Assembly (NCBI GenBank): GCA_002049455.2
Contig: KV918983.1
Coordinates: 1 to 64,000, forward strand
DNA length: 64,000 nucleotides
Direction of reading: 5' to 3'
Source: Porphyra umbilicalis
Taxonomy: Eukaryota; Rhodophyta; Bangiophyceae; Bangiales; Bangiaceae
Each line of letters begins with the position of its first letter. The stretch's first letter is position 1. Of this stretch, positions 17,567 to 61,403 are shown piece by piece. Below the pieces are notes generated by a model, which was given only the letters and a program-made list of their open reading frames with translations, made no database searches and was not told where the DNA came from. Position numbers and translations under genes: made by a program.

Positions 17567-18899
17567 GGCCGCTGCGCGGGGGGTGGGGAAGTGTACCCCT
17601 GAGGATCAGTGAGTGACCGCATCCTGTCTTGTTTCTTTTTGTTTTCTTGCGTGGGTGTGGGGTGGCGTCTCTCCATTGTCTCCTCCTCATCGGCCGTTTT
17701 CTCGTACCCAACCCCCACCTGCAGAGGTGGCCCTCATCCGGCCAACCGCCAGGGACCGACCGGCGCCCAAACCACCGCAGGGACGGCGGCAGAGGCGCCG
17801 CCGCCGCCACCGCCTCTGCCGACGGGAGCGCGGCGGCAGCGACCGCCCGCTGCGCCCACCCGCGCCACGCCCCCACCACGTGGGCGGCGCCCCCCTCCGG
17901 CGGCGGCGGCCGACACGGCCCGACGCCGCCGCGCAGTGGCGGTCGTCGGCCGCCATGGCGCCGACGCTGCGCGCACGGCGCGCCACCGCCAACGGGCTTG
18001 CGGCACCGACGTGTCCCTGCCGCGGGCGCGTCCGCAGCTCGCCAGGCACCAGACGGCAGTGGCGCAACCGCCGGTCGCGGGGGGATCCCGCGCCCGCCCG
18101 GCGGGGCCGCCCGTAGACCCGCTCGCGGGCGTCGGGCCCCGGGTGCCGACACGTCCCGCAGCGCGTCGCCCCCCCCCCCCCACCGTTGGCGGCCACGCGC
18201 GGTACATCCCCCCACAGCGCCGCCGTCTGTGACGTCCGAGCCGCCGTTGCGATGGCCAGGGCCTTGCCCCCGTCGACGTCGGCCGCGCATGGGGCGAAGG
18301 CCCTCGCCCCCCCGCCCCGCAACGACGAAGTACGTCGACGGCACCGCCGCCGCGGCGTGTGCACCGCCCTCCCATGCTTGTGGCACAGCAGCAGCAGCGG
18401 CTACGGGCAGAAGGATGCGCCAACGTCTGCCGTCACAGACGGCGGCGGCGGCGCCGGGCGCCGGCGAGCCGTCACGCGCGCAGCGGCGAAAGGTGGGGCG
18501 GGGTCGGCGTGCCCGCGCACGGCGGCAGGGGCGCGCACAGCGGCAGGGGCGGCAGCGCGCGCGTGAGGGCGCGGGCGCGGAGGAGGGCCATGGGGGGTGG
18601 TGGAGGAGTTTTTCCGGTATCCACAGGGATGGGCAGAAGGGTGGAAAGAGAGGCGGAGGTGGCCGCCGAGCGAGGATCGGAGGAGGACAACGGGTGCGGA
18701 AGGGACCGCCACTCTGCCCGTGGCTGCGGCTGTGCCGCGCCACCGTGGCACGGGATCTGGGGCCAGACCTGTCGGATCAAGTACAATCACGCGTCAATAC
18801 TACAAGTTGCCAAGGTGCGTCAATTGTAGGTTGCCACGTGGCTGCTTTTCACGGGTCAGAATCTGGCATCTCCATAGCAGCGAGGTAGGAAATGCGCCG
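17567..18899. other. No gene assigned downstream of the helicase
   Basis: About 1.3 kb. A pyrimidine tract ending CTGCAG at about 17725 looks like a 3' splice site and could mark an alternative last intron of the helicase, but no conserved protein follows. The part 17730-18560 is very GC-rich and open in several frames with Pro/Arg/Ala-rich translations, as expected by chance. GC drops from about 18600 toward the transposon block. Confidence 0.45.
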
Positions 18900-18927
18900 T
18901 GCAGCTTTCACATGACATTCGCGTGAA
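18900..18927 (+). repeat. Left terminal inverted repeat of the decayed KDZ-type element
   Basis: Begins TGCAGCTTTCACAT and pairs with 22211-22238 at 26 of 28 positions. The repeat extends into a near-palindrome (18906-18941) whose two halves both contain TTTCACAT. Confidence 0.7.
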
Positions 18928-19378
18928 TATGCGATGTGAAAACGCGGGGGGGGGGGGGGGCGCGCGCGCTCCGCGCGCGCTCCGCGCGCCTCGGGGGGGG
19001 CCGGATGCGCTCGTCGATTGACAATATCAACAGTGAGATTCCATCAACTTCGGGCGCATCCTCGACATCGGTGCCAGCAATCAGGACCGATTGGGGCCAC
19101 CCAGAACTGGGACCCGACCACAAAGATCTCCGGATCGGGGTGGCGAATCGGTCCCCACTGTCGTCGAGGACAGCACGGCGACACAGGACCCGACGGATCG
19201 GTCCCCCCGCCGCCGTACCGAATCCGCCGCCACGATGTGCGCGTGGACGCTGATGCCGTCGCGGTTGACGCCATCGTCGTCGCGCCCGCCACCATGGCGC
19301 CGCTTTTACCAGGCGTGCGTCTCCTTCGGGCGGACCGGCATCGGGCACCCGTACGTGCGGTTCCCGTGCACCCGGCTT

Positions 19379-19525
19379 GGAGCACCGCTATGCTTTGCCC
19401 AACATGACATGCCAGTCCTCCGGCAGCGTATTGGTGTTGCTCTATATGTGGACAGCTTGACCGCGGCCGACGCCTGCGCCCGCCTCCCTGTTTCTTCGTT
19501 GGCCGATGTAGCTGCAGAGGACTAG
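19379..19525 (+). pseudogene. Ulp1/SENP protease C-terminal remnant
   Basis: The translation GAPLCFAQHDMPVLRQRIG followed by VALYVDSL aligns without gaps to the end of the intact Ulp1 domain nearby (DAPLLFSQQDIPTLRVRLA, then IALFFDDL). The match continues to the stop, with LP and Ser/Asp residues near the end. The catalytic His, Asp, Gln and Cys regions that should lie upstream are not recognisable, so only the last 50 or so residues survive. It is the best evidence that the 18.9-22.2 kb element descends from a KDZ-Ulp1 transposon. Confidence 0.65.
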
Positions 19526-19540
19526 GGGAGGCACAAGCTA

Positions 19541-20690
19541 GCGCGGGTAGCGGGCGTGGGTGGCTGCAGTGTGGGTGACTGGAGAGTGGCGCGCCTGCAC
19601 GATCACATCGTAGTCAATACCTTCTTTTGCTCTCTCTCAGCTCCATTCTGTCTGACCCTACTTGTCCACTGAAGCATGAGTGCGGTCCGCTCGTACGCAA
19701 ACGACGAAGACACTTCAGTACAGCGGGCTGGTGTACCGAGTGTGCTGCTACATGTACCCCTTCAGGCGCCAATGCTCAGGCGGCAGGTGGACAGCTTGCA
19801 TGCCACTCTGGGTGAGGCCGGCACAGCGACCGCCGGGGCGCACGCCGATTCTATGCGCAGACAGTATAAACGAAACAGCAACAGTCGGGCGGCTTCTGGG
19901 TCACCCCCGACAGGGAGGCGGGACGGGTGGGAGCTCGGCCACTGGTGGCAGGCCAATTCAGCGTGCGGCGCTCTTTCCATCTCGTCCAGCTCTGCTGCTG
20001 GTGGGGCCATGCGCGTATCGCGGTCGACCGTGGGACCCCACTTTGGAAACCGAGGCGACAGGTGACCAGGCAGATGGCGTTTGGGTTCTACTGGGAGCCA
20101 TCAGCAGATACCATTCCGCAGGTGACCGACTGCTCCTCAACAAGGGACTATCCCGACGTGGCCGGGTCTCCCAGAATCCTGTGACCGCTCACGGCCCAGC
20201 ACCACGCTGGCTGCTTGACCAGTCTATCTCTCGGATGGGGGACAGTGAGTACGTTCGCGGATTGCCGAGTGACGTGCTCCCCGATAATCGCCCACCGACG
20301 CCCCCACTGTGTACTGGGGAGACATGAGCTGGTATGGGTAAAAGGCGTGGGTGACTGGAGTGCGGCTCGTGGGCATCATCGCTGTGTAACCAGAACCTAC
20401 TTTCGCTTTCTCTCTCTTCCAGTCTTTCTGACCATGCGTGTCTGCTGCCGTTTGCTGGAGGTCCGCTCTTACGTAAACAGCGAAGGTACTGTTTCTGTTC
20501 TTCTGTATGCTTGGGGCTGCGGGTGCGGCCAGGGCAGCGGTCGGTGGGGCCGGCTACGGGACTGTGCGCAGCAACCGAAACGAATGCAGCGTCAGTCGGG
20601 CAGCTGCTGAGTCAGCTCCGACAGCGGGGCTGGATGGGTAAGAACGCGGCCACTGGTGACAGACCAGTGCGGCTGCGAGGCTGTTGCCGG
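19541..20690 (+). repeat. Diverged direct duplication inside the decayed element
   Basis: Two related blocks, about 19541-19965 and 20335-20690, share in the same order GTGACTGGAG, a pyrimidine tract ending CAG, TTCTGTCTGACC versus TTTCTGACCATG, GGTCCGCTC plus TACG(C/T)AAAC, then CAGTCGGGC, CCGACAG and CGGCCACTGGTG. Divergence is high, so the duplication is old. Confidence 0.65.
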
Positions 20691-20691
20691 C

Positions 20692-20799
20692 TGGTGGAGC
20701 CAGCAGCTGCTGGCTCCACCATGGCGTCCTGCTGGCGACTGGTCCTCTTGCCAGCCACTGCAGTTGCTAGCAAGAGGACCAGTCGCCAGCAGGACGCCA
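20692..20799. repeat. Two adjacent long palindromes (double hairpin)
   Basis: 20692-20721 is a perfect 30-base palindrome with no spacer (half-site TGGTGGAGCCAGCAG). Immediately next, 20722-20751 and 20770-20799 form a perfect 30-base inverted repeat (arm starts TGGCGTCCTGCTGGCGACTG) with an 18-base loop that is itself partly self-complementary, making 20722-20799 a near-palindrome of 78 bases. Confidence 0.92.
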
Positions 20800-21450
20800 C
20801 CTCGGTCAGAGGTGGGAAGCAAACAGGAATGAGGAGCATGCCCTTCCGTAGGGCCTGGAATCGGCTGCTGAGGAGCCTGCATCGCCGGCATTGACCTACG
20901 CACAGGGGTAAAACCCTGGCCCACAAACCCGTAACCCTGACCCATCTGGAACAGACACAGGTGATTGAAAAAATAATATGGACCCCTTGTGAATCATTTT
21001 CAATCCACACAAGCATATTACACATCAGTGAGCCTCTCCAGGGCCCTTCCAGAGGCTTAAAAAATCTACCAGTAGGCACTGCGCCCCGTCCATGGAACAG
21101 ACTTTAGATTGTCCTTCAATTTCAGCCGAACAAGGCAATGAGAGTGAATTAACAGGTTTTTGATAAGTTGCTAAAACGGGCGGCGTTCTGGTGCTTGCCG
21201 CCTGATGCAACGCGCGGGGCAGGTCGTCCACCGTGTCAGACCCAGTCGGCACTTGGAAACCTCGGAATCGCCTGATCTTGGAACGAAGTGGACGGATTCA
21301 AAGTATTCTCTGAGAGAAGAAAACTTCGAGCCCGATTTGATGTATCAAAAACATTTTACGACAGCAAGCGGAACGTGTTTCTGTTTCGTCGGTGGATCTG
21401 TTCGTTGATTTGCGTACAGTTGCGGATGACGCTTGGCAGCACTGTAAACC

Positions 21451-21812
21451 CGGCGCGCCAGGGGGCCCCGTGCACGGCCCCCGAGATTCGCCAGCGCCCA
21501 CCCCCGCCAGAGGTACCGTGCAGGGGGTGCCCCAAAGGGGCCACAAAGCGCGCACAAACATTTCGGCCTGCTGATTGGCCAGGTGGCGGAAACGAAGGCG
21601 GCATCCTGGCCGCATGAAATTTCTACCGGCGCGCCAGGGGCCCCCAGCGACCCCGTGCACGGCCCTCGACTTTCGCCAGCGCCCCCCCCCGCCAGAGGTA
21701 CCGTGCAGGGGGTGCCCCAAAGTGGCCACAAAGCACGCACAAACATTTCAGCCTGCTGATTGGCTTGGTGGCGGAAACGAAGGTGTCATCCTGGCCAATG
21801 AAACAGGCGCCA
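21451..21812 (+). repeat. Two-copy tandem repeat of about 180 bp
   Basis: Units at about 21451-21628 and 21629-21812 both start GGCGCGCCAGGGG and share GCCAGAGGTACCGTGCAG, GGGGTGCCCCAAA, GCACAAACATTTC and GGCGGAAACGAAGG. The copies differ at scattered sites and in a C-run. Translations of either strand carry no family signature. Confidence 0.88.
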
Positions 21813-22210
21813 GTCCGTAGGTGGTTCCCTGGTCGCTTTGTTGACCGCATGTGCTGATACTATCTCGCCACTGTGGTCTGTATCTCGCCAGACAGGGCTG
21901 CTGAGGGCCGCAGACACAACGGTATCTCATTTTGCTGTCGATCTGGGAGCCCCTTTTTTGGGTGCTCCAGGGCGCTGACATGTGTCGTCGGCCCCAGACA
22001 CGACGACTGATCCGGACAGGCTTTGGTGTCTGTGGCCCCGCTCGGGCCTTTCCTCGTCGCTGATGTCTGGCGGCCCTGTTCATGTCTGGCACGTATCCGG
22101 TTCTGTACACCCTCTCAAGGGTCGTGCAGGCGGGCCGGTCAGGTCGGCAGCTCAGCGCTCGAGCTCGGCAGGCAGTGATCTGATTGGCCGGTTTGCTTTC
22201 ACACAGCAAG

Positions 22211-22238
22211 TTCACGCGAATATGATGTGAAAGCTGCA
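22211..22238 (-). repeat. Right TIR of the decayed element, within a 40-bp palindrome shared with the large element
   Basis: Reverse complement of 18900-18927 at 26 of 28 positions. The palindrome 22195-22234 has GCTTTCACA at its left edge and TGTGAAAGC at its right, so one site could serve as right end of the decayed element and left end of the large one. Confidence 0.65.
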
Positions 22239-22489
22239 GCGTCCGTTTCCTTCACGATAGCAGCCCTGCTGCGGTCTTGGCCGATCAGCGGCTCGCCCAG
22301 CGCCTCTGGACCTCACACCCCGCTGCCTCTTCCCATCGCCCCCACCCCCACAGACGGCAGGGACAGGGGGGGGCCCCGTGAAGGAATCGGGCGCATCAGC
22401 TTTGACACGATCTGCCGTGAGAATCGGCTGTGAACGGTGTCTCAGCCAATGAGAGGGCTGCATTCCCCCGCAGAGGGCGCTCAATGCCC

Positions 22490-22665
22490 CTTCAGACACG
22501 GTGCTCAGGAACCGCCAAATGGGGCCTGTCAGGCACCGACACCCTCCTTCCCAGACACGGCTCCTCAGACGTCCGGCGCTCAGACATGTGGTGGGCCAGA
22601 CAACAGTTCGGGCCCGGGCCCCAGACAATGGCACGTGCCAGCAGCGTTTTGGCGCCCAGACCGTC
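22490..22665 (+). repeat. Cluster of CAGAC motifs (possible subterminal transposase sites)
   Basis: Seven CAGAC words, mostly CAGACA, occur in the same orientation at roughly 22493, 22550, 22564, 22579, 22597, 22620 and 22658. More copies, some inverted as TGTCTG, lie at 21993-22090 on the other side of the terminal palindrome. Clustered short motifs near an end are a known feature of transposase binding in several DNA transposon superfamilies; the role here is inferred. Confidence 0.45.
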
Positions 22666-22753
22666 AGCACACCCCCTCCAGCGCGATCTGGGCCCCCCCC
22701 CTGACGAGCCCGGTTCGCATCATCCTCACGCCGCCGATCTGCCGCACCGTCGC

Positions 22754-22790
<37 letters not shown>

Positions 22791-22810
22791 GGGGCGGGTT
22801 CCCGGTTCCT

Positions 22811-23335
22811 GGTGCCTCCCCCCCCCTCCTCCGCCACCGGCGGGCTTCCCCGGTCTTGCTGCTCGTGTTGTTTCTTCTTTTTGGGCTACAGGGGGCGCGC
22901 CGGGCGCGCCCCTGCCCGGCGGGGCGGGCGGCGCTTTTTTGCGGCGCGGCGCGGCGTTTGACGGTCTCTGGTGCCTCCCCCCCTCCCCCGCTACCGGCGG
23001 GCTTCCCCGGTCTTGCTGCTCGTGTTGTTTCTTCTTTTTGGGCTGCAGGGGGCGCGCCGGGCGCGCCCCCGCCCGGCGGGGCGGGCGGCGCTTTTTTGCG
23101 GCGCGGCGCGGCGTTTGACGGTCTCTGGTGCCTCCCCCCCCTCCCCCGCCACCGGCGGGCTTCCCCGGTCGTGCTTCTCTTGTATTTTCTTCTTTTTGGG
23201 CTGCAGGGGGCGCGCCGGGCGCGCCCCCGCCCGGCGGGGCGGGCGGCGCTTGTTTGCGGCGCGGCGCGGCGTTTGACGGTCTCTGGTGCCTCCCCCCCCT
23301 CCCCCACCACCGGCGGGCCTCCCCGGTCGTGCTAC
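22811..23335 (+). repeat. 158-bp minisatellite, 3.3 copies, upstream of the KDZ gene
   Basis: Units begin GGTGCCTCCCC at 22811, 22970, 23127 and 23285 (the last partial), spacing 157-159 bases. Each full unit contains a pyrimidine tract followed by GGGCTRCAG, which looks like a strong 3' splice site, then a GC-rich segment able to fold on itself (GGCGCGCC, GGCGCGCCCC). The array lies just before the ATG chosen for the transposase. Confidence 0.9.
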
Positions 23336-23374
23336 GCATTGTATGGTGGGCATTTGTGGCTGTGGCTGTCGTCA

Positions 23375-26300
23375 ATGGCGGGGGGTATGCGCGCGCGGTC
23401 GGCGTCGCCTTCCCCACCCGTCGCGTTGGATGACAGAACGCTGCCAAGCTTCTCTCGCCCTGTCGAGTTTCCATTCGCCGGCAGCCATGACCAGGCGGAG
23501 GCCTTGGCTGCTCGCGTGTCCGTGCTTCCCCGCGCCGACCACGGCCCTAGCACGGTTGTACATTGCGCTGCCGCAGACGGCCGTGGACGTCTCGTCGGGC
23601 GTTCGTGGAGCCAGCAGATGCGGCAAGCCCTTGGGAGCAGTGGTGTCCCTGACCGCGCTCAACACGTCCGGAAGCGGTATGACGTCAAGCCCAAGGTGAC
23701 CAACAAGACCCCTTCCGGCGATGCGTCGAGGGACGGCGACGAAGAGCAGCACGACGATGCGGCCCCCGCCGCGGATGCATGGCAACCCACGCCACGCGTT
23801 CGCGGTACGCGCACCCAAGAGGCGGTTGCAGACCATGTCCAGGATGCTCTCGTGGCGTGCATCCAACGTGCCTGCGGCCGACCGACCGCCCAACCGCTTG
23901 TCGCTCGGGCGTCCTCGGTCACAGCGCGCGTGGTTGGGGACAAGAACTCGCGATCACGAGCAATCGTGCTGCGCGCCGGCGTTGGGAAGAAGGACGTGGC
24001 CATACTTTGGGTCTCATGTCGTGACGGCCTGTTGTGCTCGTGCTTTGCCGGCACTCAGAACGCGCTCTTCCTGTCCGCGTCGTCCCGCAGCACCAAGTGT
24101 GTTCACACGACCGCCATGAGCAAGGCGCTGGCGGCATCGGGTGTTGGCATCCACACCTTCCGCGGACGGATGCGGCTCCGCGCCGACGCGGCCGACTTTG
24201 CGGTGCCGGATGTGTACGGGTCGGCGGTCATTTGGGCGGTGCTATACCGCTCCGTGTACTCAGTCGTCTCCTTCAGCTCCAGCAACGCTCCCGCCTGTAT
24301 TGCCCCGGGGTGCCGTCGATTTCGCGGTCGCTGTGGTCACGTGCGCGTCGCACGGCAACGGCAAGGACCCAACGGCTTCCTGGACATTGACACCGGAACG
24401 GCGCCAGCTGCTGTCAAGGCCCGCCTCCACGCCCGCAAGGCGGCCGCTGTTCAACGGGTCAAGGTGCTCAACAATGAGGAGGAAGACGAGGGCTTGGAGA
24501 AGGAGGAGTCGGACACCATCCGAGGCCCGCACGACGTGGACCAGGGCAAGCTTTCCCAGCGCGTCCCGCGCAACCTGCTCCCCTGTTCGTCCGAGTGCAA
24601 CCAGGGAGAGGTTTGGACGAGGACGGCTGATTGGCGGGCACTCTACATGAAGCAACGCGCTGCGGCGCTGCAGACGGGAAGGCGGGCTGACGCCAAGACT
24701 CTCAACGACTTGTTCCTCATGTCGATTGCAGCTGGACACATCCGGGACGTGCGACAGGTCTTGACGGAGCCGTTTTGTGGCAGCTGCGGCTTGCGGCGAG
24801 AACAGCGCCACAAGGTCGTCAAGGAGCCCGCCATATTGACGACTCACCACCCGACAGCGAGCAGTTTGCATGTACGTCTTGCCTTGCCATCTCTGCGCCG
24901 ACGGTTCCTAGTTGCCCATTGACGTGAGCTCTTTGGTTTGCCGACAACCCGTGCCGATTCGCCTTATCTCGACGGCGTTCTGACCCTGCCATTGTTATTG
25001 CTTAGATCTTGGCCTTGACATTGAGCAGGTTTGGGTTGGCCGCTGGGAGTGTGACGCTGACGATTGCAAGCGCACTGTCGAGTTTGACGGCGGCGCGGAA
25101 GGGCTCTTCTCCATGCGGCGGAAGAACAAGTCCCGGCAGTGGCTTTTGTTCACCCGGGGGGTGCTCGACAAGCTTGTGTCGTTCATCATTGCTGGTCGCA
25201 CTACCTACACGGCGGCCACTCGCCACCTCTCGGCGGACGTGCGTTCATTTTGCCTGCGTCGGCAGGACGTGGCGAAACTCGGCACCGCGATCATCAAGAC
25301 GTTTGAGATTCCTCCAGAGTCGGGCCGCTGCCCGACCTGCGGCCCCAACCCCGCTTTTATTGTGATCGATGCCCAGGCGCTCGGTTGCTCTGATCCAGAC
25401 GACACAACTCCTGTACGTCCGGGCGAGAACTGCCCCGTGCTGGACATCCCCGCGTCCAAGCTGTGCATCGTCGAGAAAGCCCCATTGAGGGACGCGATCT
25501 CCAAGGTGCTGCGCTCCTCGACGGCGTTGACTGCTGGCCAAGCAGCGGCGCTCCGGTCATGGCACGGCACAATCGACGCTCCCGGCCGCCCAACGGCAGA
25601 GGCTGCTGCCGCCAAGGTGTTTTTCCACTTTTTCCCGATTGGCAACCCCGAGGCTGGTCCTCCCCCCGCCGCGGACGCCCCCAAGACGCGGACGGACGCT
25701 GCTCTCCCCGTGGGTGTGCCCGCTTCCGCAGCTGCTGCCGCTGCCGCCGCTCCCCGCGCTCCCCCTCGTCGCCGGTCATCAATGGCTACTACCCTGGAGA
25801 GTGCTGTGCGGCTCGACAAAGACGGCAAGCTCGTGCTCGGGGGGAAGGGCCCTGCTCCAAAGAAGCCGGTCGAGGTGTGGTCGGACCGTGTCGGGATGTG
25901 TCAACCTGCCTTCGACTCGTACCCGCACGAGGAGGAGGACGTGTGGTGCGCCGTGCGCCCTTTCTTGCACGCCATGCTCACCGAGACCATTTGCGGCATG
26001 TTCCAGGGCTTTGACGAGCGCGCCGTCGAGCTCCTGGCCAACTCGATCCGGATCCGGCCACGGGATGGGTGGCGCAAGTTCACGGCGGCGGCGGATGGGG
26101 TGGGTTTTGTCGCCAGCTTCCTCGGGCGCTTTGCGAACGAGCTTGACGAGGACCGCTCGCTGCGCTCGGCGGTGGGGGAGCTGTTGCTCAAGGCCGTATT
26201 GATTGAGAAGTTCGTCGACGACGAGTTCAAGGAGCAAGCGAGCAAGAAGCGCAACCTGGATGACGGGTGGCAGAACGCCAAGTATTGCGAGCGGTGGAAG

Positions 26301-28442
26301 GGGACGCCGACGTCCGCGGATTACGCGCGGTGGAGAATGGAGCAGACGGACTTGGCCACGATGGACGTGGACGACCCGCTCATCAGCTACGAGTACTTTG
26401 CCGGCCTTCCACGCGTGCGGCCGGGCATTATTGACTCGGAGGCAGCAAAGCGCCGCGTGCAGTACCGGGGCAAGGACCGGCACGTGGCCGACCTGGAGGG
26501 GGAGGGCGACGCCTGCAACCAGGCGTTCTCGATCAAGGCCGGCTTGACGCAGGGGGTGTTCAACGTCGTTTGCCCACACGTCATCACCCTGGGCTTTCGC
26601 TGTTTGTTCCGGGCGGAGAGCGTGGGAGAGGCGCTCTCCATCGTCCTGGAGCGGTTTCCTAAGCTACCAGAGGTCATCTTTTATGACGTGGCTTGCAAGT
26701 TGGACAAGAACGCGATGCGGCGTGTGCGTCCCATCATGCGCGCTCACGGGGTGAGGTGCATCCTCGACCGGTCACACTCAATCACCCACTCGTGCTCCCC
26801 CATCTACATGCCCGACGACAGCCTCGGTTCTACGGCCGGCATCGCGACGCAAGCAGCCGAGGTCTCCCACTCGATCGCCGTCGTCAATCGGACCAGCTTA
26901 GCCTACATGTCTCCGTCGACGTATATGGTGCACAAGATAGTGCAGGTCGCGTTCATGAACCTCCGCAAGATCTACCGCCTGCACGCCGACAACTCGTCTG
27001 GCGAAAACGACCACGTCTGGCTCGCGCCTTTCCTGCACGCCAAGGTGGCCCACCAGTGCTCGCGGCTGTCGACGTGCTCGTGCAAGAAGACGGACGCGGA
27101 GGGCAACTTCGACGTGGAGGAGATGCTGGTAGGGGACGAGCGCCGCACGCCGCACGCGGCGGCCAATGCCGATGGCGTCGAGACGGCGAATGCGGTCGAG
27201 GTGGTCGACTCGTCGGGGGGGCCCTCCTCGGTGGACGAGCCTAACGGCCTGCCGGTGGCCGACCTGGTGGGCGGGCTCGAGGAGGTGGGGGACCCCAATG
27301 CGGCCGAGAGGCTTGACACCGTGTCGGCGGCCAACGACTCAGCGGCGCCTGTCGTGGCGTCGCTCGCTGGACGAGCTAGCCGTGAGCGCAACGAAGCGCG
27401 CATCGAGGCAGTTGGCTCGGTTGTCGGTGCTTTCCGTGGCGCCGACGTGGTGGATCTGGGAATGACGGACGGAGAGGACGCTGACTGCAGCCCGGTACCG
27501 AACGACAGCCACGTGCTGGGCAGTTTTGAGTTTGGGTGGCTGCTTGAGGAGCACAAGCGCTGCGCGCGCGGCCGGTCGCCCCCCAAGCGCGAGCCGGTGT
27601 GCACGTCGCCCCCGCGGAAGGAGGTGCTCGAGTTCGCGCGCAACCTGGTCGAGCTGCCACCCGCTCGTGCTGTACGCCCCCGAAACAAGGGGCGGATTAC
27701 GCTCACCGGTGGCGACTTCTTGCGGCTGGCAGGGGAGAACTGGCTCAACGACGAGCTGCTCAACTCCGTCGTCGCGCTCATCAACCATAGAGACGACCAG
27801 TTCCGCATTGCGGCGGTAGCGGACGGGGCTGCGCTGCCCACCGGGCGTAGCAGCATCGCGCCAAGGACCCGCATGCTGAACTCGTTCTTCTTTTCAACGC
27901 TGGCCCCTCACCCCTCCCACTACTACTACGACCGGGTACGCAAGTGGGGCGTCAAGGCGGGCGTGGAGCTGGAGGATGTGGACAAGATCATCGTGCCTGT
28001 CAATATTGGCATGCGACACTGGGTGTTGGTCGCCATTGACGTGGGCAACCAGCTGTTTTGCTTCTACGACTCGATCACCACGGCCGACCGGTCGGGCGTG
28101 GTCGACACGTTGCGGCGCTGGTTGAACGACGAGTTGCGTTCCCGTTTGGGGGACGCTGCAGTTGCCCGCTGGGTCGTTGACTCGTGGGCTGTGCGTGTCG
28201 ACCCTGCTTGGCCGCGGCAGACCGACGGTGGCAGTTGCGGTGTGTTTTCTGTGGTCGCTGCCGACTGCTTCTCCGTTGATGCTCCTCTTTTGTTTTCCCA
28301 GCAGGACATCCCCACCCTACGGGTGCGCCTCGCCATTGCTTTGTTTTTTGATGACTTGGACGTGAGTGATGACGTGCTGTCGGCGTTGCCGTGCAGTGAC
28401 TCGCCACCTATCTCAGATGGCGAGGATGAAGAAGAAGAATGA
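23375..28442 (+). CDS. KDZ-family transposase fused to Ulp1/SENP-like cysteine protease
   Basis: Exon 1 (23375-24871) and exon 2 (25029-28442) are joined in phase 0 across a GTACGT...CAG intron, giving about 1,636 residues. Residues about 215-250 carry a SWIM-like zinc motif (CSC, then CVH) and a further Cys/His cluster follows. The junction leads into the cysteine region (WECDADDC, later RCPTCGPNP). The RNase H-like transposase core has candidate acidic residues in FIVIDAQALG, IFYDVACKLD and QAAEVSH, the KDZ pattern. The last 250 residues are a Ulp1 protease with catalytic His in MRHWVLV, Asp in FCFYDSI, and Gln/Cys in RQTDGGSCGVF, ending in an acidic DEEEE tail. All catalytic residues are present, so the gene could be active. 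The upstream frame lacks another ATG near the repeats, so the start is the first ATG after them. Confidence 0.88.
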
Positions 28443-30690
28443 CTTTCTTTTGTTTTGTCTTTCCTATCCATGAGCTCCTCCCTTTCCCTGTGAGTCATCG
28501 CCGAGGTCCACCTCTCATATGGAACGCTACGGAGGCTGCTCTGTGTGACCGACAACGAACAATGACAAATAGCCAGTCGCATAAAAGGAGCCTTGGTTGT
28601 GCTGCAACAACAGAAGCCACAACGCGTCATGCAACGCGCTGGTCATGGCGGCCACTGTGGTTTCAGACTGAGCAACAGGGTGCTCAGTGCCGCCCGCGTG
28701 GCCAGTCGTACCCCATAGCGACACAGACGAGAAGAAAACAGATTCAGCGCTGATATACAAGCAGAGGAGAAAAGGGGAACGAGGAAAGGGTCAGGGGAGA
28801 AGACAAGCGCCGGGGCATGGCATCGAAAGCTTCCTATCGCACGGACAAGCAGGAAGGCATTTCATCTAAACATGAAGCAGGCCATGGCAGGGGGGCTTCC
28901 AGACTGCGCTCAACCACATACGAACTGCGACACGTGGACGAGGGAGCGACTTTGGAAACACTTCCATGCTGGAAAGGGCACATTAAGATAACTACAGGGC
29001 GGAGTCAGAGGGGGGGCACCGGCGAGGTGCCGCCACCAGTGCTCCAGAGACAATACGTGGGCGCGGTAAGGTACCCACCGCGCAGTAGCTCTGGCGCGAG
29101 GTGTGGCCCGCGCATCTTGCGGTGGACACAAAGAATGACTATTTCTTCAGTGGAGTGGAAAGTGTCACAGCAAACCATCTGACAGGCTGGGTAGGAATGG
29201 GTCGCCCCGTCATTTGCAGACCTCTGACTCATTGACTCGGACCTCTCTGACGATCATCATGTGCAAGAAGCATGCGGCGGTGCACCTGCCAGGACCAAAC
29301 ATGCAGAGAAACCGGCTTCCGCGCAAGCGCATGAAGGGCGGGGCATGCGGCGACTGTGGATGGCGGGAATGAAGTAGCATCACATCATAAAGGCTCTGCT
29401 ACGTCGCGTGTGGGTACTGACCGGGGTACCTTTCTAAATCACTGCCCGCAACCTGGTCACCAGACCACTGATACGCCAAACCAGAGTGCAGAAGCCATTA
29501 CTCACAAGAGCAAGTCCCACTCTACCCATCAGTCCCAAGCACCCACGACACGAACCGGTTCACTGACACAAGGACTTTTGGCCACCAGGTCCACCACAGA
29601 ATCTGTTCAACCACTACTGGTCTGCTCCCAGTTGCACGCCAGGTCCTACAAAGGTAGGTAGACAATGGCGCCATGTCCGTCATCTGGGGAATCACCGATG
29701 CTCGAAGGTCTCTTTGCCTCTGAATGGAAAGACACACTTGCCCCGACCGCACCTGTTTGTTCTTGTGCATTCTTTCAGACTGCGTGGCTGTCAGTCTCTT
29801 GGCGCATGAGTGCAGTGACAAGAGTATGCGGACTTCGCGCCGCCAAAGTCGCGGGATACCGTTTTCGAACCAAACATGAGGTGCTGTTATGGAGAGCTGT
29901 TGGTTGGGTCACAGGTTGGCTGGGATGTGGCGGTGGTGCCCAGGGAGCAGAGCGCCTGCTGGACGGGCAATCAGGATTCGCCTGGGGTCGCAAAGAGATG
30001 CGAGCCTTCACTTCCCCGACTTATTGCCGCCAGTAGGTTGTATTCAACACACTCTCTATGCCGGTGATGGGTAGTGCAGGATGCCTTGCTTTGGCGGCAG
30101 CGGGGATGGCGGTGGCGGTGGTCGGAGCGGTGGAAGCCGGCGAGCGGGAAGCAGTCGATCTGCTGATGGAATTGGATGACGTGTACCCATTGCATTGCTG
30201 CACCTGAGGCTTGCTTGTGCAAATTGTTTGCATGCCACGCTGACACGTTATGAAAGTAGCCTGGGTGAGGCGGGTACGGACAAGCGTCGACCAAAAACGG
30301 TCACCCAGCCTCGTTCCCACTGTCCGCGGCTCGGACATGCCGATCTCGTGTGGCAGGCGCGCGCGGGCATCTCTTTCCCGGCGTACTTGTCCCACCTCCT
30401 TCGCGCCACTGGGCCGGGGTCGTGGGTCTAATCCCCGTCACTGTCGCCGCTCCAGCACGTTTTTGCAACCTTCCCGACGTTATCTTTGCTCTGTGCGACG
30501 AGCGCGAGGTACGTTGCATCACGCGCATCACATCACCGACTCTACTGTAGACCTCGGGGGTGTCCTCCTGTTTGGCTGTTTTACGCTTGAGCTCCGTTTA
30601 TGGTGCTGCACGTCTCGCTCCCCATGCGGAGGACAGCCGTAACGTGAGGATGCATCATTGCGTTGGGGCGCCGGTGGGCGACCGGTTGAC
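28443..30690. other. Spacer between the transposase and helicase genes
   Basis: About 2.2 kb with scattered short frames and no recognisable domain. One segment (30350-30506) translates to a protein-like stretch (VGLIPVTVAAPARFCNLPDV) that ends at a GTACGT donor at 30507, so an upstream exon of the helicase gene is possible. No terminal repeats were found to suggest a separate insertion. Confidence 0.4.
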
Positions 30691-33504
30691 ATGTTTTCCT
30701 CGTCCCCTGTTGTCGTCACCATTCACGGCTTGCCGTCGATTGCTGTTCTTGCGGTGACTAACAGTTTCCCCGCTTCTCGTACGCCTCTTCCATCCTTCCC
30801 GGGGACTGTTGATGTTTTCCCTTACCTCTATGATCAGGTGCGCAGCGGCCAACGAGGGCGGCAGCTTGAGTGACCCACATGTTGTCGGCCACGGCAGGCT
30901 ATGGCCGCTGCGGTCGACCGGTCGTGCAAGTACGTCGCCGTGCTGTCGCCCTCGGTGTGCGTCATCCACAACTGGGCTGACGGGGTGGACATTACGCGAC
31001 GCCTCGTTACAGCTGAGCCGGGGTTGCTCGCCACTCGGTGCTTCTCCACGCAGAAGGATGCACTTTGCTGGCTGACCAACCCTGTCCATACCGAGGCCGT
31101 AGCCGCAGCTGCTGCGCACTCCTACGCTGAGCGCGGTCAACCCGTCGCCGATGACAACGGTTCCACCCGCATTGCAGTGGTGACGAGCTCGTCGGCCAGC
31201 TGCTTGGGCGTCGACTCGGCGGGCCTTGCGGCCGCCCTCGCATTGGCGCGCAATCCCGCCGTCGGTGCCTGCGTCTTCCATCGGTTTGTGTCGGCGGCGC
31301 TCGCATGGCAGTGGCTTGTCACGGACGCCGGCAGGTGCTTGCTGGACATTGTGCGGTGGCCGCCCGATGACGACGCTTCTCGTGTTCGGTCCCCTGCCGC
31401 CCTGACGAGCTCGTCAATCCCGGGGCAATCTCTGCGTGCGGCGGCCTCGACCCCCGGCGGAGGGTCGGCATCTGTGGAGATGACTACCAAGTCGTGTGCA
31501 TCGTGGAGCGGGGGGTCGAATGGCGGCGCCGTGCGGGAGCCGGTGCCGGCGTCCCGACCGGGAAAGCGTACATTGACCCCTTCCGGCTCCCTCGGTCTGT
31601 TGGTGGCTCCTCTTGTGGCGGGGTCACCGGGGGACAAGCGATCACCTGGCCAATTGTCTGGCTTGCCCGAGCAGCACGTTGACGCCGGTCCCATTGAGGA
31701 GATCGACCTCACTGGTGGAGCTCCGGCCAAACGGCAGAGGATGCCGGGCGTTGTGCCCGACCATGCTGGTCCTGCTCATTGGTCTTCATCGGACGCGAGC
31801 GACTTGCTCGCGGCCGCTCGGCGTCTTGTATCGCAACAGGGCGGGGGGGGCATCGGCCATGGACTTGCGTCCTCCAGCGGGGGCGCGGCGGCCGCAAGCC
31901 GAGGGAGGCACGATGGCCAAGGGACGTCTTCGCGGTCGCCGTTAGCCGGGTTAGACTCGCGTCCCCCCGTGCAAGGGCATCACGGCGGCACCCCGTCTCG
32001 TCGTCGTGGCGTCGTGGCACAAAGGCCAGCCGCTGGCGGCTGCCGCTCAACCGACAACGGCAGCGACGGGGGCTCGTTGGAGCTGGACGGTGTCGGGCCG
32101 ATTGGGCTCCTCGCCAAGGCTGGGCGGTGGGACCAGGTCTGCGAGCAGCTGTTTGCCAGAGTGAACAGTGCGTTCATCTCCGGCGGGCCAGGCGCTGGCA
32201 AGTCCACGCTTTTACGGCGTCTTTACGGCTTTTTGCGGCAGCGCTACACGGCGGACGGCGAGGTGGTGGTGCTCGCGCCGACTGGCACGGCCGCCAAGAC
32301 GGCCGGTGGCATGACGTACCACTCGTTCTTCGGGTTTGTACGGGACTACACCCCGGTGCGGCTCGACCCAAGCCTGGAGGCCGCGCGCCTTCTGCGGACC
32401 GACCGGTTCAAGCCGATCAAGACTCGCTTGGGTCAGGTCCGGGCCATCCTCCTGGACGAGGTCTCCTTTGTCGGCGCGGACAATCTCGGCATCATGCACG
32501 AGCTCCTTTGTCAGTCGCGGTCGGACGCGTCCCGCCCCTGCCTTTGGTTTGCTTTTGGCGACTTCTTGCAACTCGGGCCGGTCAAGGGTGCGATGGCCTT
32601 CACCGCGCCGTGCTGGCGGCGTCTATTTGGCGACGCTTTCCTGGACCTGCCCGGCTCCTTCCGGCAAAGCGAGAGCGGCTTCATCCAGGCGGTTCGCGAC
32701 GCGCGCATGGGCAACTACACCGACGCTGTGCAGCAGCTGGTCAAGGAGTGCTGGGTTGATGGTGCCAAGTACGAGAGTATACGGTACGAGGTCCTCCACC
32801 TTATGCCCCATCACAGGGGCGTGCTCGAGCACAACCGGACCTGCCTACAACGTCTCACTTCGGGCACCAAGACGTCGTTGTTTGTTGCTGTTGACGACGT
32901 TGAGGAGGACCCGGACCGGGACGCGTCGCTGCCTCTCCCTGCGCTTGGCGCTGTGTCGGCCCAGTCGCGCAAGGCTGCCCTGGTCGACTGCGTCGCTCCC
33001 GCCGCCGTGCCGCATTGCCTGCAAGCCCGGGTCATCATCAACAACAATCGGCGCAAGGCTCTCGGTGTCTGCCACGGGAGCGTCGGCTTCATTTTTTCGT
33101 ACGAGGCGGATGGCACCCCCGTTGTGCGTCTGAACAACCACGAGCTGCCGTCGGGCGTGGACCGGGGGCAGGCGGGGTTGCACGATGCTGGTGACACATG
33201 GATTGAGGTCCTTTGTCCGCCAGTCAAGTTTACTGCCCGCATCCTTGCTTACCCGGGGGCGTTGGCTGTACGCTTGCAGGTGCCATTTGTTTTGGGTTGG
33301 GCCACCACGATCCACATGTCGCAGAGTTTGAGTATCTCTCGTGCTGTCCTTGACTTGGCCGAATGTTTTGAGGCCGGCATGGTCCAGACGGCTTTGAGCC
33401 GTGTGCCGACCAAGAGTGGTTTGAGCATCAAGTCTTTTGCGGCGTCGCGGTTGCGAGCCGACCAGGTAGCGTTGAAGATGTACAGAGAGTGGCGGCGGTT
33501 ATAG
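30691..33504 (+). CDS. Pif1-like superfamily 1B DNA helicase
   Basis: Pif1 helicases are 5'-3' DNA helicases. The frame from 30901 to the stop gives 867 residues; a short upstream exon (30691-30837) joins in phase 0 over a 60-base GTGCGC...CAG intron and is tentative. Helicase motifs: Walker A GGPGAGKST (about residue 428 of the long exon), LAPTGTAAKTAGGMTYHSFF, Walker B AILLDEVSFV, WFAFGDFLQLGPV, PGSFRQSESGFIQAV, and near the end TIHMSQSLSISRAV with VQTALSRVPTKSGL. The first 200 residues have two similar modules with WADG...FSTQKDALCWL and FVSAALAWQWL, reminiscent of RNase H1 hybrid-binding domains (tentative). Residues 200-380 are disordered. It shares strand with the transposase and ends 34 bases from the convergent accessory gene. 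Confidence 0.87.
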
Positions 33505-33538
33505 TTATTCTTTCTCTAGGTAAACAAACAGTTATATA

Positions 33539-36085
33539 TCAAGGTGGAGCATTTGGAGCATCTGTGGGATAGCTTAGGGGTAGAAGATGGGCAAGAGAAG
33601 CCTGCGCTGCGGCCACGTCGGCCGCAACCCGGGCATGGAAAAGCCTCTTCTCCTCGGCCCTACTCAAACCACCCACCCCTCCCCCCTCGGACTGCGATGC
33701 TGGATCAGGCAAAACAAAAGAAGAAACAGGGGATTCGGGCGCAGGACGACGGGGCGTCGACTCGGGCCTCTCCACCCCGGCACCTGCCACGACGTTGGGA
33801 TGGTCACGCTTACGTGCCGTCCCACTTGCACCGGCCTGTTCTTGAGCTGCTGCTGCTGTTTCCAATGGGGCAACGGGAGCAGCTGTCCCTGTCGTCAAAA
33901 CATGGGTTGGGGGGAGTGGGCCTCGCGCTCCTTGTCCAGCGGGAGCTTGTGCGCCACCGCCATCTGTGCGACCGGCATCAGATGGGCCGTCCGCAGGTGC
34001 AGGAGGAGCCGACCTTGCGGGGGCCTTTGCCGGTCGGGGTGCGCGCGTCCGCTTGCCTCCCCTTGCAGTCGAGTTGGCAGGGGTGGAAGCCTTGCCGTTT
34101 GGGACAGTATTCACACTCGGACGGGCGGCGACAGAAGTGCCACTGCCAGTAGCAGCAGCTTTGGGCGGGCGTCCCCCGCCGGTTGCCGCCCGCGGCCTCA
34201 CAGCCCCACCAGCGCTTGGCCTGGTAGACGTCGCAGCGGGTTGTCCCGGGGTGCCAAGTGAGCTGGCAGCACCACGAGGCGCCTTGGATGCAGCGCGGGG
34301 AGCTGGTGGTCGAGCAGCTCGTGGACGTGGCCTTGCCCTGAGTACTTCCGCCCTCTGCGAGCGACGAAAAGCCGCCTCCTTGCTGTTGTCCCGAGCCCCG
34401 TCCGAGGCCATGGCGGCGTACTCCCCGGATAGATCTTGTGGGAGCTCATCGGCCACCGCCGGCAGGTCCGATGCTGGCACGCCTCCACCCCCGTCTGCAG
34501 ATGCTCCGCCGCTTGGGGACGCGCGCTCGTCTGTCGACAACGACGGCGCCAGCCCCGCTGAGTAGAACTCGTGGCGAAAGGCAGTCGTCAAGGGCGCGTT
34601 TTTGTTGACGTCGGCCCGCCCGGCAAACGCCAAGTCCGACAGGATGGAGGAGAACTGCTCCTACTTTGTCACCAGTAGAAGCAAGCAGGCGACAACAACC
34701 GTCAGCTTCATGGGCGACTTGCCGCTCACCCGCTGCACACACTCAACGCCGGGCAGCTTGTCCTTCTTAAAGAAGCGGGACGTCTTAACGCTTAGGTCTT
34801 CCAGCGCGTGGTTGATGCCCGCCATGTTGATGAGGATGGACCACCGTGAAGACTTGGCAAGGCGTTTGCGGTTGAGCTTCCACGCCAAAGTACCCTCGGG
34901 GGGTGTGGTGCTTCCCGAATCTTGGGGGGCCTTCCAATGTGGCCACCACAGCTCGCACATCCTCCAGATCGCGGCCGCGTCAGCCTTGGCGCCAGTCGGA
35001 CGTATGGTGCCGTCAGGGGCGGAGGGATTGGGCCGGGAGCGAGCCAGTACCAGGACCCCGTCGCTCAGCAGCTTGAGGAGCACGTCCTTCCCGTCAGGCA
35101 TGTCCATTACCGTACGTAGGACCGCGGCCACAGCCTTGACGGCGACCAAAGGCGGCGTCACGGTTGGTTGTTGCTCGTACAGGACGTGCGACGGGATGGA
35201 CTCGTCGTCGCCACCGTCAGACAAGTCGAGATCGCCTTGATCGCCTGCGACAGCCGAGCGAAGACTGCTTGATTGCTCTTCGTCCGCTTTGTCAGCGTCG
35301 TCCTCGTTGTCGACGCCCGCACCACCCGCAGCCACCGCTCCGCCCGCAGCCGCCGCGCCGCCCGCGGCACCCGCACCGTCCGCACCGGCAGCACCGCTCG
35401 TGCCACCAGTACCACCGCGCCAAAAGGGCGTTGCGGATACGACCATTCCTCCCTGCGGCACTGCATCCTCAACCTCCTCCCCCCCGTCGCCACCATCAAG
35501 TTGGGAGGCTTCCTCGTTTGCCGAAAGCACGAGACCTCCCGGTGGCAGTGGGTGTTCTTGTTCCTCATCGTCGCCGTCCAGCTGCCCGGGCAACAGCTCC
35601 AGGTTGGCCGCCGCGGCGGCCGCGGGGTTCATGGTCGTCGTGGACACGACCACCCCGCCGCGCGGCACGGCACCTTCCCCCTCGTCGTCATTTTGGCTCG
35701 CGGCCGCATGTGCCTTACGCAGCAGCAAAGCGTTCGCCTCCGCCAGCGCATCCGCTTCGAGATGGCGGTACGCAAAGGCGAGGCCAAGGTTGACGATGCG
35801 CTCCGAGTGCCGGTTGGCGTCGGTGAAGAAGCCCAGCCGGTCGACGACCCGGATCCACCTGTGGGTGGGCGCCTCCTGCGGGTTGTCGGACACGACCATG
35901 CGGCTGACCGCGCAGTGAAGCGCGGCGCTGTACGGTGCAAGATGAAGGTCAAGCTTAGAAGCCGCGTCGTACAGGTTGCGCAGCAGCGAACACAGAAAGA
36001 CCATCTTCTTCTTCTCTGAGATGCCCAGGTGCTCAAAGAACTTGAGGTAGAGTCGTTGCTCGGCGGCGTTGAAGACGGGCTCCAT
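33539..36085 (-). CDS. Accessory protein of the KDZ element, interrupted by one in-frame TAG
   Basis: I do not recognise a family. From the ATG at 36085 (just after a CAG that looks like a 5' UTR splice acceptor) the frame runs about 475 residues to a TAG at 34658-34660. The same frame continues as open coding sequence with similar style for about 370 more residues to 33539. The N-terminal 110 residues look folded (LYLKFFEHLGISEKKKMVFL). Then an acidic linker contains three copies of a P-x-G-G-x-V/L-V/L-S motif. A second globular region has WRMCELWWPHWKAP and KSSRWSILINMAGI. The part beyond the TAG is Ala/Pro/Arg-rich and basic. Either one nonsense change split a longer gene or the TAG is a true end. 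Convergent with the helicase. Confidence 0.6.
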
Positions 36086-37052
36086 GACGGTTCTGCAAAT
36101 CCGAAAGAAGAAAACAGAAGAGCACACATAGGAACAGCATATCAAAACTCACGCATGCAGCGACATTGAGAGAGAGGCACTAGGGGCGTCAGAAAAGGAC
36201 GTGGCGAAAACACAAACAAGGCGACAAATAGGTTGCACGACACGTGCGCCCCAACCAGCTCAGCCCTGTACACGTACCGCTCCACAAAGCCCTTGATACA
36301 ATCTCCCGTCACCAGCACAAAGCCAAGCCCCCGCCCCCTGCCGCTCCCCGCCAACGGGACCAACAGGCCACGACACCAGATGGGAGCCTGCAGCCAACCC
36401 AGCCACTGACACCACCTTCACGCCGCTACCCTTCCGCCGATGAGAGCAACGGAGGCGACCAGCACAGCACCAGTCTAACAGCACCAGAGCTCTCGACGGG
36501 CTTGCCGTCGTGCTCGACCGCCATCTCATCGTGGAGGCGCCCGCCACCCTCGCAAGGTGGTCAATCGGCAACCGCGCGGCGGCGCGCGCGCAACCGCCGT
36601 GGTCACGCTGTGGCCCCAATCTCCAGGAACGGCCAAGGTCAGTGATGTGCTGCGGTGGCGACAATCCCGAGGAATCGCGGCGCGAGCGCGCAAATCGCCA
36701 CCCTGATCGGTCCATAATTGGGCCGGGGTCCAATTATGCACCCCCCCCCCCCCCCCCCCCAGGGCGCCCCCCCCCCCCCCCCCCTCGTGTTCACTGCGTT
36801 CGTTCACAGCATTCTCTGTGAAAGCAATTTTTGGCATTTCCTATCTCGGGGGCCCGCACGCCCAGTGCGCAGCGACCGCGGTGGCGCGCCGACACCTGCT
36901 GCCCACCCCGTCCATCGCCCGCTGTTGCTGACGGCGACACGCTGCCAGTCGCCCGCCCTCTCCTTCCCCCACTCCCTCCCTCTCTTCCCAACCTCGCTGT
37001 GTCTCTCCCACGCCCGCCCCCCCCCGCTAACCCCCCCCCCGCCGCCGCCGCC
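36086..37052. other. Boundary region between the transposon block and CSP41
   Basis: Holds the upstream region of the minus-strand accessory gene, then C-runs at about 36730-36784, then a small hairpin near 36798-36825 (TTCACAG...CTGTGAA ending TGTGAAAGC) that may be the right end of the large element. From 36840 the sequence is GC-rich host DNA and presumably the CSP41 promoter and 5' UTR, with a C-rich, pyrimidine-rich leader before the ATG. Confidence 0.45.
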
Positions 37053-59605: not shown

Positions 59606-60128
59606 ACTCACACTTCAACAGGAAAGAGGCGATTCTGCGTCCTCGTCCCTGTCCGGGCGGGCCCCGTCCACACACATCTACGTGCCCCCCGCGTTCTTTC
59701 TGCCAACAGCGACGGGTCTTTTTCTTACGCTCTGCAGCGCTGCTGCGGTGCTAGGACGGTAAGCCCCGCGGGCTACGTAACCTAAGGGTGCCCCGTTCTT
59801 TTTTCCCCCCCGCCATGCCGATCCGCCATCAAGTTTGCCACTCGGTACCTGACGCGCGTGCGCGTTGCTGTCTCCCCGGCCTCTCTGTTTTTGTCTGGGT
59901 GGTCTGTGGTTCTGTGTTGTTGTCCCTCCGCTCCGCGCTTCAAGGTTCCTCTGCAGGCGCACGCCTGCCCGCCACCCTTGGGCGTTACCCCCCCCCCCCC
60001 CACGCGGCACGCTTCACCCCCAACCCTCGGACCGTCCTACATCAACGTACATCAACGAGAATCACGGGGTGCACCCCACCGTTAAGCGGCAATCAGCGTC
60101 GAACTTTGGCTTTTTTTTGAACGTGGCC

Positions 60129-61403
60129 ATGGCTCGTCGTACCCGCAAGGCGGTCCTTTCTACATTGCGTAAACGCCTCCTTATTTTTTCCGTCCTGCTC
60201 GCTGCGATGGAGGTCGGGGCCATCGACAAGGGGGACCTGATTCCAGGGGGAGGGCGGCTCAGCAAATTATGCCTCCACCTGTGCTGCGGGCTGTCGTGGC
60301 AAGCTCTGCACCAGATGCACACGCAGCGGTACCTACAGCGCGAGCGAGGCGGGGTGCCAAAGACAGACGCGTGGTTCAAGTGGGTGTTCTACAGCGCGTC
60401 TGAGAAGCAGTTCCGCACCGCCTTCCGTGTCAACCGGTCGACGTTTCAAGCGCTCAAAAGTGTCCTTCTGGTGCGCGCGCGCGCCGCTTTCTGTCGCCGC
60501 CGGGGGGGGAGCCAGCTCAGCTTGGACCTGCAGCTCGCCGTCACCCTTTTCCGTGTGGGCCACTACGGGAACGCGTGCTCAGTGGATGCCGTGGCAGACC
60601 TGTTCGGGGTTTCAGTCGGGGGCGTCATCAAGAGCACGCGGCGAGTGGTCAAGGCGCTTGCTGGTGTCGCCCCGCAGCACATCCGCTGGCCAAACACGCA
60701 GCGACGTGCCGGTCTGTCAATGTATGCGGCAGAAAAGTTCGGCTTTGACGGCTGCATTGGTGCTACGGACGGAACAACTTTCCCGCTTGCCTACCAGCCA
60801 GCGCTGCATCCCTGGGCGTACTACGACAGAAAGCAGCGGTACAGCTTGAATGGGCTCATCACCTGTGACTGGGATTGCCGTATCACCAACGTCGTGCTCG
60901 GTTGTACGGGGGCAGCGCCCGACACCTACGTGCAGTCGACCGCGGCGTGGCATCGCCGCCCAAATGTCTACTTCACGAATGGGCAATACCTATTGGGCGA
61001 CAAGGGGATGCTATATTTGCGGCATGTGATTGGGCCTTTCAAGGAACCGGAATGTACTTGTGCGGAGCATCGGAACTACAATTACCAACTGGCGCGGCTG
61101 CGGGTCAAGTCCGAGCACGCGATCGGCATCCTCAAAGGGCGATGGGGGAGCTTGAAAGAGCTCCGCCTCACGCTGGCCACAGACCGCCAATTCTCTTTTG
61201 CTATGACGTGGATCACGGCGTGTATCGTGCTACACAACATATGCGTTGATGAGGGCGACGACTTCCCCATCCCGCCTGTGCCGGAGCCCTCCCCGGCGTC
61301 CGCTGTCGAGCCCTTTGTGGAAGCGCGGCTGCGACGGCAGCAGATCTCGGCGAAGGTGTGTGCTTTTATGCGAGAGAAGAAGGTGTACAGAGAGAACGTG
61401 TGA
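60129..61403 (+). CDS. PIF/Harbinger DDE transposase
   Basis: PIF/Harbinger transposases have an RNase H-like DDE nuclease. The ATG at 60129 (GGCCATGG) gives 424 residues, a normal length. The N-terminal half is helical and includes FRTAFRVNRSTFQAL and a helix-turn-helix-like VADLFGVSVGGVIKSTRRVV. Catalytic candidates are D in GCIGATDGTTFPL, D in YLLGDKGMLY and E in RVKSEHAIGILKGRWG. The family-typical end ACIVLHNICVDEGDDF follows. No stop or frame change is present, so it may encode active enzyme. It is convergent with the partner gene, 42 bases apart. Confidence 0.92.
   Translation: MARRTRKAVLSTLRKRLLIFSVLLAAMEVGAIDKGDLIPGGGRLSKLCLHLCCGLSWQALHQMHTQRYLQRERGGVPKTDAWFKWVFYSASEKQFRTAFRVNRSTFQALKSVLLVRARAAFCRRRGGSQLSLDLQLAVTLFRVGHYGNACSVDAVADLFGVSVGGVIKSTRRVVKALAGVAPQHIRWPNTQRRAGLSMYAAEKFGFDGCIGATDGTTFPLAYQPALHPWAYYDRKQRYSLNGLITCDWDCRITNVVLGCTGAAPDTYVQSTAAWHRRPNVYFTNGQYLLGDKGMLYLRHVIGPFKEPECTCAEHRNYNYQLARLRVKSEHAIGILKGRWGSLKELRLTLATDRQFSFAMTWITACIVLHNICVDEGDDFPIPPVPEPSPASAVEPFVEARLRRQQISAKVCAFMREKKVYRENV

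Follow-up and report, generated by a model that had tools for sequence, protein, structure and literature searches.

Does a DNA transposon of the KDZ superfamily bring its own helicase along? This question is raised by a locus of the red alga Porphyra umbilicalis that lies in a 64,000-bp stretch of contig KV918983.1 (positions 1 to 64,000; assembly GCA_002049455.2). The whole stretch is referred to here as the window and, among the 665 contigs of the 83.8-Mb genome that formed our search space, its contig is C223. An earlier reading of the letters alone by a model, hereafter the original prediction, had proposed that three genes travel together: a KDZ transposase fused to an Ulp1 protease, a Pif1-type helicase encoded on that strand too, and a third gene convergent to them. 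KDZ transposases rank among the largest known, and how they work is, to our knowledge, poorly understood. We found the three genes inside one unit bounded by target-site duplications and in the same order in other copies; very probably, the window holds a complete, multi-gene KDZ-superfamily transposon of which the Pif1-type helicase and an orphan accessory gene are standing parts, not hitch-hikers.

A duplication-bounded element with three genes

The element spans positions 22377-36847; compared with the limits given by the original prediction (22195-36825), its left end lies 182 bp and its right end 22 bp further to the right. Alignment of copies, which had been suggested as a check, recovered shared ends and 8-bp target duplications. 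When the window copy was compared with close copies on contigs C129 and C34, the common ends read CGTGAAG[G/T]AATCGGGCG on the left and GGCA[A/T]TTCCTATCTC on the right, and in all three copies they were flanked by 8-bp direct repeats whose letters vary from copy to copy. Exact 8-bp duplications were present in 16 of the 17 elements checked at their ends (11 of 14-17 kb and 6 short), and the remaining one agreed at seven of eight positions. The duplications were exact on C129, C34, C356, and C164 and 7/8 on C142; the left end on C164 was located through its 8-bp duplication and then recognised by sequence, which makes it slightly less independent than the others. Ten further end pairs were picked from end-pattern searches, among the matches listed (100 places per list), and judged by their ends; all ten had exact 8-bp repeats. 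They comprise long elements of 14-17 kb (C20 twice, C71, C115, and C51), with C115 classed as long from its end distance and absent from the transposase matches listed, and short elements, close to 2.0 or 5.1 kb in length (C36, C74, C129, C512, and C4). The two elements on C20 (C20:369009 and C20:369110), both full length, were inserted head to head with about 100 bp between them, and each is flanked by an exact 8-bp duplication of its own. Among the matches listed, we also noted end pairs 27-30 kb apart at C13 347857-377876 and C143 15159-42469, possibly elements that contain nested insertions.

The transposase gene is described by a spliced model, in which joining 23375-24871 to 25029-28442 yields exactly 1,636 residues. 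In all six copies compared, the corresponding places have a GTAYGT donor and an AG acceptor. The start codon is a choice, and tblastn matches reach further upstream in some copies; a tandem repeat array with a unit of about 158 bp (22819-23333) lies inside the element, 5' of the chosen start. A SWIM-type CxC...CxH motif was found at residue 221 by pattern, not by profile. The Ulp1 region matches the Pfam family Peptidase_C48 (E-value 5.8e-23), has all of its catalytic residues (H1496, D1513, Q1563, and C1569), and aligns with SENP1 across the His, Asp, Gln, and Cys positions. A SWIM finger, cysteine clusters, and an Ulp1 domain around the core are KDZ features. By its sequence, the transposase has all three, and its match to the Pfam KDZ domain is by itself weak; close relatives bear that domain (PF18758) in precomputed annotation, for example P0035, P0045, and P0062. 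The spliced model, Pfam, and the SENP1 alignment thus agree on the 1,636-residue protein with a SWIM-like motif, cysteine clusters, a KDZ core, and an intact Ulp1 protease that had been predicted.

For the helicase, which the original prediction had placed on the transposase strand, Pfam gave matches to AAA_30 and PIF1, the sequence matched solved Pif1 proteins with an E-value of 3.8e-24, and the predicted fold matched them as well; the protein has the motifs of a superfamily 1B helicase on a predicted Pif1 fold. Its N-terminal region (30895-31356) is predicted to form two similar beta-beta-alpha-beta-alpha units, which had no meaningful match among Pfam or PDB sequences and which, as a lead only, we take to resemble tandem RNase-H1-type hybrid-binding domains.

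The convergent gene is also present, at 36085-33539, and its product had no Pfam match. In all five other copies that were read, its frame is open across the place of the stop at 34661 in the window copy, encoding 784-976 residues. The predicted structure of the protein has a mean predicted local distance difference test score (pLDDT) of 34. The part encoded by 34664-36085 (minus strand) contains LPxGGxVVS-like repeats with acidic flanks that may perhaps be SUMO-interacting, a lead only. Two to three such motifs were counted in four of the six copies, one in C164, and none in C356; shuffled accessory sequences had 0.05-0.10 on average and up to 2.

Gene linkage and divergence across the genome

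The transposase query gave 65 matches, 26 of which were extra fragments, and these merged into 39 loci; the accessory query gave 84 matches (29 extra fragments) and 55 merged loci. The best 40 transposase candidates were scored, and the locus counts are lower bounds. At 33 of the 39 KDZ loci, the accessory gene was found downstream and convergent, 5.8-19 kb off. All six elements read through (window, C129, C34, C142, C356, and C164) had the transposase, the helicase, and the accessory gene in that order. The helicase was also sought at eight additional KDZ-plus-accessory loci by sampling 301-bp pieces at the predicted places, with the window helicase as query. It was recovered at all eight, near the predicted place and on the transposase strand each time, with scores of 85-138 bits; in a shuffle control, 6 of 200 shuffles matched, with a maximum of 34.7 bits. 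The 1.5-kb flanks of accessory loci contained the end of the helicase in the window, on C34, C129, and C143 (43 residues), and at one of two C20 loci; it was absent from these flanks at the other C20 locus, on C31, and on C142, where it lies just beyond the flank. Three clusters of helicases and three of transposases in a protein database pair up by the lengths of their longest contigs (12,928, 17,211, and 13,416), which suggests that the paired clusters lie on the same contigs. The same-genome search for KDZ-Ulp1 copies with a Pif1 gene and the accessory gene in the same order was therefore positive, and none of the elements examined showed the arrangement named beforehand as speaking against joint travel, in which copies have clean ends behind Ulp1 and no Pif1. 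The inference that the genes travel together is borne out in this genome by the duplication-bounded unit and by both sets of loci.

Contigs C172, C24, and C342 carry more divergent transposase copies (39-41% identity) with no separate Ulp1 match listed. In each of the three, a weak match resembling the accessory gene (28-30% identity) lies on the same strand, 11.9-13.8 kb upstream of the transposase; C342 has another, 5.1 kb downstream.

We compared the window copy pairwise with five copies and obtained ratios of nonsynonymous to synonymous substitution rates (dN/dS) of 0.19-0.37 for transposase exon 2, the helicase, and the accessory gene; one comparison of the accessory gene was saturated, and its C-terminal part was comparable in three copies only. 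The first-exon frame, which takes in sequence 5' of the chosen start with some stops, gave 0.29-0.36. The copies are old and separately diverged, because synonymous distances between them and the window copy are about 0.9-2. The distance matrices of six copies were correlated for transposase and helicase (r = 0.87, 5 of 720 permutations as high), transposase and accessory gene (r = 0.95, 1 of 720), and helicase and accessory gene (r = 0.95, 4 of 720). Matching matrices are what co-inheritance as one unit predicts. Stops and split frames in the window and on C129 (one stop in the window accessory frame; a split helicase frame and one transposase stop on C129) indicate that single copies decay while the gene set persists. 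Collectively, these results show that purifying selection acts on the three genes and that they diverge together. The place of the helicase as a standing gene, taken with the unusual base run near one end described next, suggests that it serves the element's own movement or copying.

A one-sided terminal tract and the role of the helicase

The terminal 16 bp of the element are weakly inverted, and TGTGA/TCACA words lie subterminally at both ends; in five elements, we counted 1-3 of these words per terminal 120 bp versus an interior mean of 0.08-0.15. Inside the right end lies a poly-C tract. A run of at least 13 C, 58-116 bp from the right end and on the transposase coding strand, was present in each of the 11 right ends for which the sequence reached that position, namely those of the seven elements with both ends read, C20 twice, C31, and C143; ten right ends were read as 61-bp pieces, too short to reach the tract. 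None of seven left ends had a run of at least 13 C or G, and the interior of the elements held a single one in 93,908 bp. Likewise, a G-quadruplex-type motif, searched for by pattern, occurred in the last 200 bp of all six full elements and in the first 200 bp of none, with an interior density of 0-0.57 per kb. That this slippage-prone run is kept across such diverged copies, and in a short gene-less element, points to a cis-acting role.

How might these parts work together? Most likely, the transposase would bind the TGTGA/TCACA repeats near both ends and carry out DDE-type cleavage, with target cuts staggered by 8 bp. The fused Ulp1 domain would probably strip SUMO from proteins of the host or of the element within the transposition complex, and the accessory protein may be a partner of that complex, a probable but weakly founded role. 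Pif1 helicases unwind G-quadruplexes, and we propose for that reason that the element's helicase may act at the G tract opposite the poly-C run; solved Pif1-quadruplex complexes are among its structural matches. It would unwind the predicted quadruplex-prone tract, whose distance from the right end is nearly constant, and clearing the tract could let a replication or repair fork, or an end-processing complex, pass. Short relatives with the same ends are probably moved in trans. That the helicase acts on the right-end G tract of its own element is a possibility we put forward tentatively. The wider idea is rather doubtful: a DDE-type cut-and-paste lineage would encode a helicase specialised in resolving quadruplexes and suited to a strand-specific G tract at one end, and its movement or copying would need unwinding of its own end, which would be asymmetric and helicase-gated.

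Several observations weigh against a standing three-gene transposon whose helicase acts at the right end. Three of the remaining KDZ loci have another arrangement (the divergent copies), three have no accessory match on their contig, and 19 of the 55 accessory loci are unpaired with a transposase. The helicase was not detected at the sampled place in either of two accessory loci without a detected transposase (nothing on C31; 35 bits, the shuffle level, on C124). The match of the window transposase to PF18758 (E-value 1.1e-4, 22.4 bits) does not reach the curated cut-off of 26.6. Terminal repeats are weakest in the window copy; 12% of its interior windows do as well as its left end. C or G runs are plentiful outside the elements, with 29 in 46,019 bp of the window. 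Among short elements without the helicase, one had its right end read far enough, and it too retains the tract. All copies share ancestry, so that the 11 right ends do not count as independent events. The run as such is not rare in the genome; its place, its strand, and its near-uniqueness within elements are what is unusual. There are two other accounts of the gene set. In the first, chance placed the helicase and the accessory gene next to or within a single KDZ copy, and the helicase could derive from a Helitron, a type of element in which Pif1 helicases are common. The Foldseek and VIA lists for the helicase, the latter covering hardly more than the helicase core, also include Helitron transposase. 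However, chance does not predict an order and orientation kept in six of six elements, a helicase at eight of eight sampled loci, a common duplication-bounded unit, purifying selection, and co-divergence, and a Helitron-type nuclease match was absent from the five element frames scanned with Pfam; we regard this account as barely conceivable. A virus-like or self-replicating element, with the helicase as its replication protein, is very improbable. Helicases are also combined with Ulp1/adenain-type cysteine proteases in virus-like elements, but the same five frames gave no polymerase or capsid match, and pattern scans of limited sensitivity found no transposase or helicase relative in IMG/VR viral contigs. 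The 8-bp duplications, as described for Zisupton and a Dileera lineage (PMC12730594; this and the other papers cited are represented by excerpts), likewise speak for a transposon.

Within a KDZ transposon that keeps its own helicase, the harder choice concerns what the helicase does. It may help by general means, such as replicating or repairing an element that is 14 kb long and GC-rich, removing R-loops, or repairing gaps after excision, while the tract is an unrelated landmark for the transposase or a host factor; we give this account an even chance of being right. It fits the position of the tract directly inside the TCACA repeats and the retention of the tract in a short element that has no helicase gene. 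On the other side, the tract is strand-specific, of quadruplex type by pattern, and confined to one end, which is the kind of obstacle that Pif1 helicases unwind. A helicase regularly beside the transposase, together with a G tract at a nearly constant place in one end only, offers a concrete and testable clue to why cut-and-paste movement should require the unwinding of DNA; the diverged copies are a natural set for testing the link between helicase and tract.

Neighbouring features and comparison with known systems

The coordinates of all features are collected in Table 1. A neighbouring short element, 18882-22256, ends 112 bp before the left duplication of the 14,471-bp element and has the poly-C run as well, at a distance of 64-79 bp from the right end. 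An almost perfect palindrome with 39-bp arms (20722-20799) lies within it. The left end first placed at 22195, on a TTTCACA repeat, was rejected; it falls within the last 62 bp of this neighbour. Elsewhere in the window, an open frame at 59865-61400 (plus strand) matches a DDE_Tnp_4 transposase (E-value 1.5e-21).

Table 1. Features of the KDZ element and its neighbour in the window
Feature	Position	Strand	Remarks
Complete three-gene KDZ transposon, 14,471 bp	22377..36847	+	ends CGTGAAGGAATCGGGCG...GGCATTTCCTATCTC common to other copies; exact 8-bp flanking duplication
Left target-site duplication GGGGGCCC	22369..22376	.	same letters as 36848-36855
Right target-site duplication GGGGGCCC	36848..36855	.	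same letters as 22369-22376
Left terminal region, TGTGA/TCACA-like repeats, no G or C tract	22377..22496	+	
KDZ-Ulp1 transposase, exon 1	23375..24871	+	spliced model; SWIM finger 24035-24106, cysteine clusters
Transposase intron, 157 bp, GTACGT...CAG	24872..25028	+	spliced model
KDZ-Ulp1 transposase, exon 2	25029..28442	+	Pfam: KDZ core match 26544-26795, Ulp1 protease match 27849-28334
Pif1-family helicase gene	30901..33504	+	core about 32161-33504; conserved N-terminal region about 30895-31356
Convergent orphan accessory gene	33539..36085	-	in-frame stop at 34661 in the window copy; open frames elsewhere
Conserved poly-C tract, runs of 20 and 18	36741..36784	+	63-107 bp inside the right end; opposite strand of G-quadruplex type
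Right terminal region, TCACA/TGTGA repeats	36785..36847	+	
Neighbouring non-autonomous element, related ends, 3,375 bp	18882..22256	-	exact 8-bp GCTGCTAT at 18874-18881 and 22257-22264

The helicase shares its core with cellular Pif1 helicases, by sequence and by predicted fold, and differs from them in a long low-confidence linker and in its conserved N-terminal region without a Pfam or PDB match. Helitrons join an HUH/Rep nuclease to a helicase and make no target duplication. The Porphyra element resembles them in having a Pif1-family helicase, whose predicted fold matches the helicase part of Helitrons; unlike them, it has 8-bp target duplications and a KDZ transposase, and no HUH nuclease match was found in the five frames scanned. 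AcademH elements, reportedly Academ DNA transposons that encode a helicase, would be a precedent for a helicase in a non-Helitron DNA transposon, although they belong to another superfamily; this comparison is by title only.

Among the papers listed and in the excerpts searched, we found no KDZ element with a linked Pif1 gene, which leaves uncontradicted the remark of the original prediction that it knew of no such group; the founding KDZ papers and Repbase lay outside this scope, so an earlier description is possible. One table lists both KDZ and PIF1 among expanded gene families, with no linkage stated in the excerpt (PMC6396904). Relative to these sources, what is new here is the link of a Pif1 helicase to a KDZ transposase and the right-end poly-C run; KDZ elements with accessory genes were known already.

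Likeness to Zisupton, Dileera, and Kyakuja was judged from their descriptions. Zisupton, which has terminal inverted repeats, and a Dileera lineage make 8-bp duplications, and Kyakuja makes 7-bp ones (PMC12730594). The Porphyra element thus shares a KDZ-type transposase and 8-bp target duplications with Zisupton and Dileera (PMC12730594). It differs from them in its cargo and apparently in its ends: the fungal KDZ elements described there bring a TET/JBP dioxygenase as accessory gene (PMC12730594), whereas the Porphyra element brings a Pif1 helicase and an orphan gene and has weakly inverted termini and a right-end G tract. The Kyakuja transposase is related, but Kyakuja has 7-bp duplications, CA..TG termini, and no terminal inverted repeats (PMC12730594), in contrast to the 8-bp duplications and CGTGAAG...CCTATCTC ends found here; the combination of 7-bp duplications and CA..TG ends was absent from the elements checked. 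KDZ elements have also been reported in fungi (PMC7473861, PMC8290104), and both Zisupton and Kyakuja occur in Chlamydomonas (PMC8226300). The giant KDZ elements of algae are a further comparison. In brown algae, these reach 30.3 kb in Ectocarpus, and many giant families have extra genes (PMC12477816); the same paper cites a KDZ element of 31.7 kb that is active in Chlamydomonas and, for red algae, giant EnSpm elements that carry genes. The excerpt describes no helicase in the brown and green algal KDZ elements, and their accessory genes are mostly of unknown function (PMC12477816), unlike in the Porphyra element; like it, they are large and carry extra genes (PMC12477816). A red alga is hereby added to the hosts of large, gene-carrying KDZ elements.

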